A stretch of DNA of 36,137 nt. It comes from Candidatus Coproplasma stercoravium (GTDB lineage Bacteria; Bacillota; Clostridia; Christensenellales; Borkfalkiaceae). A program made the translations under genes and the position numbers. The notes under the pieces were generated by a model. It did not search any database, was not told where the DNA came from, and saw only the letters and a list, made by a program, of their open reading frames with translations. Where the stretch lies: contig DVFR01000023.1 in assembly GCA_018713165.1 (NCBI GenBank), forward strand, positions 1-36,137, written 5' to 3'. Positions 31,842 through 36,137 of this stretch are shown in pieces (the first letter of the stretch is position 1; every line of letters starts with the position of its first letter).

Positions 31842-31870
31842 TTGAAATTTTTTAAAGCATTTGATATAAT
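31842..31870 (+). promoter_or_regulatory. Promoter of pfkA
   Basis: TTGAAA at 31842-31847, a 17-base spacer and TATAAT at 31865-31870. The leader is about 110 bases. Confidence 0.83.
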
Positions 31871-31989: not shown

Positions 31990-32952
31990 ATGAAGAGAAT
32001 AGGCTTGCTTACGAGCGGCGGCGACGCCCCCGGCATGAACGCCTGCATAAGGGCGGTAGTCCGCAGCGCGCTCTACTTCGGAATGGAAGTTTACGGCATC
32101 GAGCGCGGCTATCAGGGACTTATCGACGACGAGATGATATCCATGGATATGCGTTCGGTCTCCGATATCGTCCAGCGCGGCGGCACCAAGCTCCGCACTG
32201 CGAGGTGCCTCGAAATGCTCACCAAAGAGGGGCAGAAAAAGGCTGTGCGCACGCTTGAAGCGCGCGGCATAGAGGGGCTCGTCGTAATCGGCGGCGACGG
32301 CTCGTTCAGGGGTGCAAAAACTCTTTCGGAGGAATACGGCATACCCACGATAGGTATCCCCGGCACGATAGACAACGACCTCGAATATACCGACTATACC
32401 CTCGGTTTCGATACCGCGGTCAATACCTGTATCGACGTAATAAACAAACTGCGCGACACCATGACCTCTCACGAGAGAATTTCCGTCGTCGAAGTAATGG
32501 GCAGGCGTTGCGGCGATATCGCGCTCTACGCGGGCATTGCCAGCGGCGCGGAGATTATAGTCGTTCCCGAAGTCGTATTCGACCTCGACGACATCGTCAT
32601 GAAGATTAACCGTTCGCGTGCAAACGGCAAGCACTCGAATATAGTCGTAGTTGCAGAGGGCGTGTGCACTGCGGAGGAGTTTGCAAAACAGCTTCAGTCG
32701 ATAACGACTTATTCCGTCCGTCCCACTACGATAGGACACATCCAGCGCGGCGGTTCGCCCTCCATGGCAGACCGCATGCTTGCCGCACAGTTCGGCAACA
32801 AGGCGGTGCGCCTTTTAAACGACGGGATAGGCAACAGGGTTGTCGGCATCCATAAAAACGAAATTATCGATATGGATATAATCGAAGCCGTAAACATGAA
32901 AAAGAAGTTCAATTACGAACTCTACGAAACTCTGCAAATGATTTCAATGTAA
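31990..32952 (+). CDS. pfkA: ATP-dependent 6-phosphofructokinase
   Basis: The committed glycolytic kinase making fructose 1,6-bisphosphate. The 320 residues are the standard short bacterial form. Motifs are GGDAPGMNA at 10-18, GGDGSFRGA at about 98-106 and PGTIDNDL. Gly at the second position after GGD and Gly in PGT indicate ATP rather than pyrophosphate use, because PPi enzymes carry Asp and Lys there. GGCGGAGG precedes the ATG. It has its own promoter after the dnaE terminator. The gene pair dnaE-pfkA is common in Firmicutes. Confidence 0.97.
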   Translation: MKRIGLLTSGGDAPGMNACIRAVVRSALYFGMEVYGIERGYQGLIDDEMISMDMRSVSDIVQRGGTKLRTARCLEMLTKEGQKKAVRTLEARGIEGLVVIGGDGSFRGAKTLSEEYGIPTIGIPGTIDNDLEYTDYTLGFDTAVNTCIDVINKLRDTMTSHERISVVEVMGRRCGDIALYAGIASGAEIIVVPEVVFDLDDIVMKINRSRANGKHSNIVVVAEGVCTAEEFAKQLQSITTYSVRPTTIGHIQRGGSPSMADRMLAAQFGNKAVRLLNDGIGNRVVGIHKNEIIDMDIIEAVNMKKKFNYELYETLQMISM

Positions 32953-33026
32953 CAAAAGCCGCAGCTTTTTGCGGAAGGGCAGTAAGTGAGTTTTTGTTGC
33001 GCGAAACCGCTCTGCCGGAGAGAGCA

Positions 33027-33953
33027 ATGATTTTAAGTATTTGTTTAAGCCCTTGCATAGACGTCAACATGGAAGTCGACAGTTTAAGCGTGGGCAAGTT
33101 GAATAAGATACTCAACAAGCGTATTTATTATACGGGAAAAGCGATAAACGCCGCGCGCGGGCTGAAAAGGCTGGGGGCGGAAGTTCAGGCGACGGGCTTT
33201 ATGTACGAAGACAACGGCAGGCTTTTCGAGCAGGAACTGCACTACGAGGGCGTGCCCTATAAATTCGTATGGTGCCCGGGCCGCGTGCGCGAAAACTATA
33301 AATTTGTCGACAACAAGTCTATGCTCACCGAAGTCGACGACATTAGCCCCGAGGTGAGCGAGGAGAAGAAGGCCGAACTCATCGAAAGGGTGCGCGAACT
33401 TTCCTCGAGGAGCGAGGCGGTAATTCTTTCAGGCGGACTTGCAAAAGGAATGTCGCCTTCGTACTACGGCGAAGTGCTTTCTGCCGTCCCCGCAGGCGTA
33501 AAAAAGATTGTCGACACGTATGGAGAGCGGCTGTTTGAATCTCTTAAATGCGGGGTGGAGCTGGTTAAGCCCAACCTGCAGGAATTGCAGAACACGCTCC
33601 GCATCACTATAAACAGCAAGGAAGAGGCGCTCTACGGCTGCCGCGAACTTTTAAAACGCGGGGCAAAATATGTTCTTCTTTCCCTCGGCAAAGAGGGCGC
33701 TATTTTAACCGACGGCAGCAAGAGCTACTATTGCAAGAGCATAAACGTCGCGATGAATTCGACGATAGGCGCGGGCGACGGCATGGTTGCCGCGGCTGCA
33801 TTTGCGCTTGTAAAGGGATATTCCATGCCCGATATTTTACGCTGCGGCGTTGCGGGAGGCACCGCTGCCGTAACCACGCCCGACAGCATAACTTTCAAAC
33901 GCGAAAAATACGAAGAAATTTTAAGCGGTCTTGAAGTTCACGAAATCGGTTGA
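33027..33953 (+). CDS. PfkB-family sugar kinase (1-phosphofructokinase/tagatose-6-P kinase type)
   Basis: A 308-residue ribokinase-fold kinase. The N-terminal LSICLSPCIDVNM and the substrate-side motif YYTGKAINAARGLKRLGA correspond to the FruK/LacC pattern TPNPAID..GGKGINVARxLxxLG, with deviations. The C-terminal catalytic motif is STIGAGDGMVAA, with Asp of GAGD as base. The ATG at 33027 is chosen because GGAG lies at 33017-33020; the in-frame codon at 32994 is a TTG without support. It follows pfkA by about 75 bases and there is no PTS gene nearby, so fructose-1-P, tagatose-6-P or another sugar phosphate are all possible. Confidence 0.87.
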   Translation: MILSICLSPCIDVNMEVDSLSVGKLNKILNKRIYYTGKAINAARGLKRLGAEVQATGFMYEDNGRLFEQELHYEGVPYKFVWCPGRVRENYKFVDNKSMLTEVDDISPEVSEEKKAELIERVRELSSRSEAVILSGGLAKGMSPSYYGEVLSAVPAGVKKIVDTYGERLFESLKCGVELVKPNLQELQNTLRITINSKEEALYGCRELLKRGAKYVLLSLGKEGAILTDGSKSYYCKSINVAMNSTIGAGDGMVAAAAFALVKGYSMPDILRCGVAGGTAAVTTPDSITFKREKYEEILSGLEVHEIG

Positions 33954-34042
33954 CGAATCATCTGATATATATTAAAGCAAACGGCATAAAAGTTTTTTGC
34001 CGGAAGGCGTACATTCGGCCCGCAAGGCGGGGGAGGTAATCT

Positions 34043-34753
34043 ATGCGCGACGAAACAAAACCCATGAAGCTTATAGGCGCTCTTTCGTACGATTCGTACT
34101 CATTGCAGCACATCATCGACGTGGATAAATATGTCGCGGGCGAGGAGCTCGGCTACGACGTGTGCGGAACATATGCGCCTTTCTGCAAGGCGTGTTCAAA
34201 ATCCGTGGCAAATCCCTGCGCCACGGCGTACCGCATAAACGAGCGCATGTCGTCCGTTTGTCCCATGCTCGATTCGACAGGCGCCGACGACGCACGCGTC
34301 GTTCAGGCTGTGACCGACGTAGACAAATACCTTGCGAGCGAGGGCTTCGGCCTTGACCTCTGCGGCAGGTACGCGCCTTTCTGCGCGGTTTGCGACAAAA
34401 CGCAGCCCATGCCCTGCGGACAGGCATATTTAAGGCTGAAAGCCGTCGAAAATTTCTCGACCAAGGCGCTCGCCGCACAGGAGGGAGGGCAGCTTGTTGT
34501 GAATATGCCCCGCTGGGACGACGCGCTCACACAGGCTCTCGAAGATGCCTCCGCGTCGGTTAACGATGTTGCCGGAGTGCCCGACGGTTCCGAAATCGTT
34601 GCCGCACCTTTGAGCGAGCTTGATTCCGTGCAGACTGTCGCGCTCGAGAGCGGCAGCGAAAGCACGGTAACCGTTACGGCTCCCCGCCGCGGTTTCCGCA
34701 TAGGCACGGCAAGGCGCCGCGTACCGGTTGAAAAGGCTGAAAACGTACAGTGA
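34043..34753 (+). CDS. Unrecognised protein with duplicated four-cysteine module
   Basis: A 236-residue soluble protein that I do not recognise. It contains two similar segments, about 26-64 and 92-130, offset by 66 residues. Each has VDKY, CG-YAPFC, and the same spacing C-x6-C-x2-C-x7-C (Cys 41, 48, 51, 59 and 107, 114, 117, 125), then AY. An additional Cys is at 73. Such regular sets suggest a metal site (zinc or Fe-S), which is inference. The C-terminal 90 residues lack Cys, are acidic and low in complexity, and end in a basic patch (APRRGFRIGTARRR). GGGGGAGG gives a strong ribosome-binding site. It has its own terminator and no functional partner is obvious among its neighbours. Confidence 0.85.
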   Translation: MRDETKPMKLIGALSYDSYSLQHIIDVDKYVAGEELGYDVCGTYAPFCKACSKSVANPCATAYRINERMSSVCPMLDSTGADDARVVQAVTDVDKYLASEGFGLDLCGRYAPFCAVCDKTQPMPCGQAYLRLKAVENFSTKALAAQEGGQLVVNMPRWDDALTQALEDASASVNDVAGVPDGSEIVAAPLSELDSVQTVALESGSESTVTVTAPRRGFRIGTARRRVPVEKAENVQ

Positions 34754-34770
34754 TAATCTGAAATAATTGT

Positions 34771-34800
34771 GCCGCACGGCGATTGCCGTGCGGCTTTTTT
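34771..34800. terminator. Terminator between the four-cysteine gene and the recombinase
   Basis: A 10-bp GC stem (34771-34780 with 34785-34794), GATT loop and six Ts on the plus strand. It may also serve the convergent recombinase gene, although that side has fewer Ts. Confidence 0.9.
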
Positions 34801-34807
34801 ATCTGTT

Positions 34808-35431
34808 TTATAATCTTGCGTGCAGCCGTTCCCTGTACAGTTTTGCGCACCTTGCGGCGTGGTAGTAAAAGTTTGATTGTTTCATTCCCGAACTTTTCAG
34901 CGCTTCTTTAAGACTAATTTCTTTGTTTCTGAACCTGATTAAAATGTTTATGAACTCGTCCGAGTACGGTTTTGCGGGCCTCCCGAATTTTACGCCGCGC
35001 GCTTTGGCAAGCGCTATTCCCTCGGCCTGCCTTGCGCGGATATTTCCGCGCTCGTTTTCGGCCACGAATGAGAGAACCTGCAAAACAATGTCGGAGATAA
35101 ATTTGCATATAAGAGTGCCGTCGGTCGTCCTCGTGTCGAGAACGGGCATGTCGAGCACAAGTATATCCGCGCCTGTTTTATTCACAATATTGTTCCATTC
35201 GTCGGTAATCATTCTGTAATTTCTGCCCAGCCTGTCGATTGATTTTATCACAAGCAGGTCGCCCTTTTTAAGTCTTTTCATAAGTTTCAGATACCCGTCG
35301 CGGGCAAAGTTTTTGCCGCTCTTTTTGTCACAGTAAATGTGTTTCTTTTCCACTCCGAACTCTTCGAATGCCTCGAGTTGGCGCGTAAGGTTCTGGTCGC
35401 GCGACGAAACGCGTGCATAAGCATAAATCAT
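34808..35431 (-). CDS. Serine recombinase (resolvase/invertase family)
   Basis: A small serine recombinase of 207 residues. The catalytic Ser is Ser9 in YARVSSRDQN, with the active-site arginines in SIDRLGRN (67, 70), the helix E motif AENERGNIRARQAEGI (about 124-139) and a C-terminal DNA-binding HTH at about 155-192. AGGAG lies 8 bases before the ATG on the minus strand. Proteins of this type resolve transposon cointegrates or invert DNA segments. No transposase is seen. It is transcribed divergently from a surface lipoprotein gene 246 bases away, so an inversion role is possible but unproven. It could also be a remnant of a mobile element. Confidence 0.92.
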   Translation of the reverse strand: MIYAYARVSSRDQNLTRQLEAFEEFGVEKKHIYCDKKSGKNFARDGYLKLMKRLKKGDLLVIKSIDRLGRNYRMITDEWNNIVNKTGADILVLDMPVLDTRTTDGTLICKFISDIVLQVLSFVAENERGNIRARQAEGIALAKARGVKFGRPAKPYSDEFINILIRFRNKEISLKEALKSSGMKQSNFYYHAARCAKLYRERLHARL

Positions 35432-35651: not shown

Positions 35652-35677
35652 TGAAAAATTTTTTATTGGAGGAAATA

Positions 35678-36137
35678 TGAAGAGGAAATTGTTAACGATT
35701 TTGTTGGCAACGGCAGCATGCGGCGCGCTTATAGGCGCTGTCGGCTGCACAGGCGAAAGTAGCTCGGGGGGGGGTACTGAATGGTTTACCGGTACGGCTT
35801 CTCCGAACGAACAGATTGAAGCCGATATAGGAGATTTTTATCTCGACGAAGACGACTTCGATATTTACAGGTATACTGCCGACGGCTGGGCTCTTATAGG
35901 AAATATTAAGGGTGAAGACGGAGCGACAGGCCCCACAGGCCCCGCAGGTGAAAATGGCGAGGATGGCAAAGACGGAGCCGACGGAGCGACAGGCCCCACA
36001 GGCCCCGCAGGTGAAAACGGCGAGGACGGTAAAGACGGAGCCGACGGCGAAACGCCCTACATAGGTGATAACGGAAACTGGTGGATAGGCACTACCGATA
36101 CCGGAGTAAAAGCTGAAGGACAGGACGGCGCCGACGG
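35678..36137 (+). CDS. Collagen-like surface lipoprotein, truncated by the window end
   Basis: Only the first 153 codons are present. The start has TTGGAGGAAAT as ribosome-binding site. A signal peptide (MKRKLLTILLATAACGALIG) ends in the lipobox AVGC at about residue 26, so the protein is expected to be lipid-anchored outside the membrane. A Ser-Gly linker encoded by a G9 tract follows, then an acidic region, then collagen-type Gly-X-Y triplets (GATGPTGPAGENGEDGKDG, twice) and the segment ETPYIGDNGNWWIG, often seen in clostridial surface proteins. The gene lies opposite a serine recombinase. Function is probably adhesion or surface display, not proven. Confidence 0.9.
35766..35774 (+). repeat. 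Homopolymer tract of nine Gs in the lipoprotein linker
   Basis: Nine Gs followed by TACT, directly after the lipobox region. The frame is open at this length; loss or gain of one G would end translation of the surface protein. Confidence 0.9.
35917..36042 (+). repeat. 63-bp tandem repeat encoding collagen-like triplets
   Basis: Two consecutive 63-bp units (35917-35979, 35980-36042) nearly identical, each encoding 21 residues of Gly-X-Y, with a few synonymous changes; a partial third unit follows. Copy number could vary by recombination. Confidence 0.85.

Follow-up and report, generated by a model that had tools for sequence, protein, structure and literature searches.

Organization of the locus

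The window, i.e. the whole stretch of DNA analysed here (36,137 nt of contig DVFR01000023.1 of Candidatus Coproplasma stercoravium), contains an ORF (34043-34753, + strand) encoding a 236-aa protein with two tandem four-cysteine modules, whose orthologues are found in related genomes. Inspection of its flanks revealed a ribosome-binding site (ggggagg; 34030-34036, +) ending 6 nt 5′ of the ATG codon and, downstream of the gene, a strong intrinsic terminator (+), comprised of a 10-pair stem (9 GC pairs; 34771-34794) and a T-tract extending to position 34801. The next gene upstream, separated by a gap of 89 nt, encodes a PfkB-family sugar kinase (32994-33953, +) and is syntenic in the genus; it is preceded by a gene for 6-phosphofructokinase (PFK, pfkA; 31990-32952, +). 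Both genes were recognized by Pfam matches. A promoter-like site (TTGAAA-17-TATAAT, with TG before the second hexamer; 31842-31870, +), identified by its match to the consensus only, lies 5′ of pfkA. Judging from this arrangement, it is likely that pfkA, pfkB and the module gene form one transcription unit.

Directly downstream, in convergent orientation, is a gene encoding a serine recombinase with a resolvase N-terminal domain (34808-35431, - strand). A homologue is found at the equivalent position in L069, L031 and L032, which are also members of the group. The window ends within a lipoprotein-like gene, whose 5′ part (35677-36137, +) contains collagen-like GPTGPAGENGEDGKDGADG repeats and which continues past the window end.

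Internal duplication and general features of the protein

Two C-x6-C-x2-C-x7-C units, beginning at C41 and C107 and therefore exactly 66 residues apart, are present in the translation, and both contain the strings CG-x-YAPFC and PC-x2-AY, as had been described in the original prediction. In 200,000 shuffles of the protein sequence at least one such pattern appeared in 40 cases and two patterns in none. The corresponding 59-residue segments share 24 identical residues, 20 of which are not cysteines, and their alignment yields a Smith-Waterman score of 139, compared with a shuffle maximum of 54. The two units are therefore a true internal duplication; a tree of the modules contains too few columns to tell one duplication origin from two.

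Module 1 spans residues 15-73 (34085-34261, +; C41, C48, C51 and C59) and module 2 residues 81-139 (34283-34459, +; C107, C114, C117 and C125). The original prediction was inaccurate in two respects: the protein contains nine cysteines, not eight, since an extra residue (C73), outside either motif, is located between the modules, and the conserved unit is about 55 rather than 39 residues long, because an upstream helix carrying conserved Q, D and K residues belongs to it. The modules are followed by a predicted helix (residues 158-174, the WDDALTQALEDA region; 34514-34564, +), conserved in the two-module subgroup, and by an acidic linker (residues 176-212; 34568-34678, +) that lacks cysteine and is predicted to be mostly disordered (pLDDT mostly <50). 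Near its C-terminus the protein carries a basic segment, APRRGFRIGTARRRVPV (residues 213-229; 34679-34729, +), of net charge +6. The cysteine-free acidic tail with a basic end foreseen earlier is thus present, and comparison of homologues, which a single sequence does not permit, identified the basic end as a conserved motif shared within the genus. Each module has a net charge of -2 and the pI of the whole protein is 4.7. Neither a signal peptide nor a membrane segment is apparent in its sequence.

Definition and distribution of the family

Searches of Pfam, NCBIfam, PHROGs and PDB sequence profiles yielded no match above threshold to the window protein or to the module in its relatives. The original prediction, which could not place the protein in a known family, therefore agrees with the profile searches that it had proposed. 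Short matches to eL42, PEX12 and PDI strings, obtained in the PDB profile search with E values of 0.2-1, were rejected.

The consensus of the module (about 55 aa) is Q-x3-D-x2-K-[YWF]-x3-S-x5-DLCG-x-YAPFC-x2-C-x-K-x5-PC-x2-A-Y, and both window modules conform to the membership pattern derived for the family, Q-x3-D-x2-K-[YWF]-x3-S-x5-DLCG-x-[YF]-(AP)FC-x2-C-x-[KR]-x5-PC. They match profile A2 with E values of 1.9e-26 and 5.2e-26, which are partly due to construction, as A2 was built from the window protein and its relatives. Support independent of A2 comes from a single-sequence search, which found matches in 75 of the 201 genomes of the same family, while a contig search yielded seven close relatives, among them named Candidatus Coproplasma genomes. 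The shortest relatives comprise 66-100 aa.

Of 396 genomes of the order, 103 contain the module according to profile A2. When 398 genomes sampled from the phylum were searched, the window's own genome alone gave a match. No credible module was found outside the order in the class sample, where two frames of 39-43 aa (in G1063 and G1230) without the full pattern were judged spurious. Within the genomes searched, all sampled in the same phylum, the family appears to be limited to a single clostridial order, which supplies the phylogenetic distribution that the original prediction had called for.

A mobile origin was also considered and rejected: no relative was found in plasmid and phage records, and viral contigs gave no match with P0001 and only one short frame (L112), judged spurious, with A1. 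In another family of the order, two closed genomes (G230 and G252) encode a small degenerate relative (L110 and L111; PCGYLDYCDYCD...YPCAKAKLRME), with four cysteines in nearly the same pattern and a different N-terminal helix, without the full Q/D/K helix.

Taken at the level of sequence, these data describe a real, conserved family without a prior name, not an orphan. As had been predicted, the gene appears to be genuine and expressed, judging from its orthologues, purifying selection, operon-like placement, ribosome-binding site and terminator.

Conservation of the module and selection

Across the 69 modules with coverage of the compared columns, taken from proteins with one module, two modules or a fusion, the four cysteines and the Q and K residues never vary, and the D, G, S, P and A residues are nearly invariant. 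In none of these 69 modules is a cysteine replaced by histidine or any other residue. The spacing after the first cysteine is x5 or x6, depending on the lineage. Module 2 is the more conserved copy; its substitution rates (dN 0.08-0.33, with dS mostly at least 1.5) point to strong purifying selection, whereas the acidic linker (dN 0.76-2.5) is nearly free to vary.

Predicted structure and comparison with known folds

The AF2 model of the window protein, based on an alignment of 26 sequences, is all-alpha, and both modules adopt the same arrangement: a helix, a cysteine loop with a short helix, and a second long helix (residues 18-36, 46-50 and 58-79 in module 1; 84-102, 112-116 and 124-145 in module 2), with block-mean pLDDT values of 91-96. 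In module 1, C41 is placed in the loop, C48 in the short helix and C51 just after it, while C59 starts the last helix. An equivalent arrangement (helices 8-29, 38-42 and 50-79) was predicted for a fused relative from another genus, and the mean pLDDT of the module is about 90 or more in both architectures modelled. Neither Foldseek (E >2) nor VIA-align (best Z 3.1) gave a usable match to the window model, a result that does not establish a new fold.

The module belongs to an ordinary general kind, that of small four-cysteine modules, within which it constitutes a new domain family. Like structural zinc modules (ribbons and knuckles), it has four invariant cysteines within about 20 residues, one CxxC pair and a small scaffold. 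However, zinc ribbons and rubredoxin-like proteins have two C-x2-C (CPxCG) knuckles on beta hairpins, whereas the module has one C-x2-C pair and two lone cysteines between two helices, and it gives no profile or fold match. With the YAPWCGHC site of thioredoxins and PDI it shares the local string YAPFC-x2-C, but it has four conserved cysteines, modules that are confidently modelled (pLDDT >90) without the central beta sheet, and no thioredoxin match in Pfam.

Architectures and basic C-termini

Homologues from the same genus typically consist of one module, a variable acidic linker and the C-terminal motif [IF]R[IV][AG]xA[RK][RK], while the subgroup of the window protein has two modules. Two other two-module proteins, L005 and L030, lack the exact motif, yet have a basic end. 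Nearly all homologues of the genus carry the motif at or near the C-terminus, and 489 other ORFs were devoid of it; in a few members of the genus it is followed by further acidic residues.

Two other architectures occur in the order, and the appendages behind the module are interchangeable. In other families, a free-standing module is followed by a Lys/Ala-rich tail of the histone H1 type, whose match to HC2 is weak and sub-threshold (E 0.0044). Bacterial histone H1-like proteins (HC2) resemble these relatives by virtue of the tail; the window protein differs from them in having a short Arg-rich motif in its place. The C-termini are basic in all architectures: the 16 terminal residues have a net charge of +3 or higher in 61 of 69 homologue entries (some loci being entered twice), compared with 23% of the other ORFs, a set that includes many spurious frames.

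In the third architecture, the module is fused to a domain of about 120 aa. This domain is also frequent without the module in the order, often located behind N-terminal membrane anchors and long acidic linkers. Structurally it is closest to YjbR/DUF419 (Z 8.6 and 8.0), DUF1801 YdhG frataxin (7.8-7.9) and the DNA-binding domain of T4 MotA (7.7), followed by CyaY (6.5); values near 8 fall in the range that the tool describes as common, at the edge of meaningful. It has been argued that YjbR-type domains bind DNA via a "double wing" motif (PMC7641849). The resemblance to these frataxin-like/double-wing proteins (MmcQ/YjbR, DUF1801/YdhG and the MotA C-terminal domain) concerns only the domain fused behind the module in relatives: the window protein contains no such alpha/beta domain, its model having no beta strands, and the sole match of profile A4, which represents the domain, in its own genome is on another contig (C38). 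The pattern KYNRSFIARIIQS...YYGQVKNALLAYKKVNS...GKTLCLYLALDP is present in L087-L106 and in this genomic copy (C38:41681-42034); in Pfam the domain has at most a sub-threshold match to DUF5655. In one family (L066, 1477-2604; L065, 547-1689), a gene for a free-standing module with a Lys/Ala-rich tail adjoins a gene for a module-domain fusion, at a distance of 9 nt.

Gene neighbourhoods

Within the genus the gene order PHP-whiA-dnaE-pfkA-pfkB-module gene is syntenic and codirectional, and the gap before the module gene is at most 89 nt in about ten members. The pfkA-pfkB pair is missing from the locus in L071, L031 and L037, where the module gene stays, and a completely different set of neighbours is found outside the genus. 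In other families, the neighbours include genes for rubrerythrin, a 4Fe-4S protein and Fe-ADH, for FeoB with a Crp-type regulator, and for NrdD-glutaredoxin with a pyridine nucleotide-disulphide oxidoreductase; RelA/SpoT-domain, 4Fe-4S and rubrerythrin genes are found near the module gene in one genus. The neighbourhoods outside the genus of the window are suggestive of iron or redox metabolism, each being found mainly in one lineage and considered without a background rate.

Four genomes of one genus (L080, L113, L114 and L115) have a RelA/SpoT-domain gene as the codirectional neighbour directly 5′ of the fused module gene. In three of them this gene is preceded by an additional conserved gene, of the 4Fe-4S type in L115.

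Possible function

It is probable, from the sequence pattern and the model, that the module binds a metal. The four thiolates of C-x6-C-x2-C-x7-C would hold one metal per module, with Zn(II) as the most probable occupant, ahead of an Fe-S cluster. Disulfides are unlikely, since no export signal or membrane segment is apparent. The metal would pin the first helix, with its conserved Q, D and K, to the last helix, thus forming a helical hairpin.

The reading that we tentatively prefer, with a probability of about 0.4, is that the protein is a cytosolic adaptor, composed of two metal-stabilised helical-hairpin modules and a basic tail that acts on a polyanionic partner. The disordered acidic linker would connect the two-module head to the C-terminal motif RRGFRIGTARRR, which may dock on the partner (nucleic acid or the ribosome being the likeliest candidates). 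A second macromolecule would be recognised by the Q/D/K face of the modules. This proposal is supported by the invariance of the cysteines and of Q and K, the slow evolution of module 2 compared with the free linker, and the equal fold predicted in two unrelated architectures. It is also supported by the basic C-termini of most homologue entries and by the nature of the appendages that follow the module across families, which are either basic (the Arg motif or the Lys/Ala-rich tail) or a double-wing-like domain. Several observations speak against it. The modules are neutral to acidic and the pI of the protein is low; the head is therefore no nucleic-acid binder of the classical type. A protein or a membrane would be an equally plausible docking site for the basic tail, a few members of the genus carry acidic residues after the motif, and the fused partner domain, with its common Z values of about 8, is absent from the window protein.

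A possible, though unlikely, alternative is that the protein functions in iron or redox metabolism. Its four thiolates would then hold an Fe-S cluster (or else a labile Fe/Zn site), and it would sense iron or redox state or help to move iron, its partner being the frataxin-like domain found in the fused relatives. The four invariant cysteines in the absence of histidine, the similarity of the fused domain to YdhG and CyaY, and the iron- and redox-related neighbours in other families are in line with this. However, those neighbourhoods may be due to chance, in the genus of the window the neighbours are glycolytic and replication genes, and the functional residues of CyaY are not conserved in YjbR-type relatives (PMC7641849).

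We consider it rather doubtful that the protein is an adaptor between proteins only, whose modules bind an enzyme (e.g. the co-operonic phosphofructokinases or DnaE) and whose basic tail contacts an acidic protein or a membrane. The acidic character of the modules and the compact syntenic gene cluster of the genus would suit such a role; nevertheless, the kinase link looks positional, because pfkA-pfkB is absent from the locus in some members and the neighbours differ outside the genus, and a functional link to phosphofructokinase was not accepted as established.

Finally, a reversible thiol/disulfide switch, in which YAPFCxxC would function as YAPWCGHC does in protein disulfide isomerases, is very improbable: the string YaPFCkvCdk resembles that site weakly and locally in a PDB profile (E 0.24), but the absence of beta strands from the model precludes a thioredoxin fold, invariance extends to all four cysteines and not just to two, and the protein appears to be cytosolic in a host presumed to be a gut anaerobe.

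The adaptor with a polyanionic partner may also be viewed more broadly, and this extension is again rather unlikely: the module could be an order-specific metal-sensing or metal-structured recognition head of a new kind, a plug-in unit that has spread within the order and is combined with interchangeable nucleic-acid-binding tails (the Arg motif, the H1-like tail or the double-wing-like domain). If this were true, the head and its tails would represent a lineage-specific class of regulators or of nucleoid or ribosome factors. With its invariant, metal-type cysteines, its absence from Pfam-A, NCBIfam and PHROGs, and its occurrence in one order of mostly uncultured clostridia, the family is a promising candidate for a regulator specific to this lineage, and the module profile together with the tail motif allows its direct annotation.
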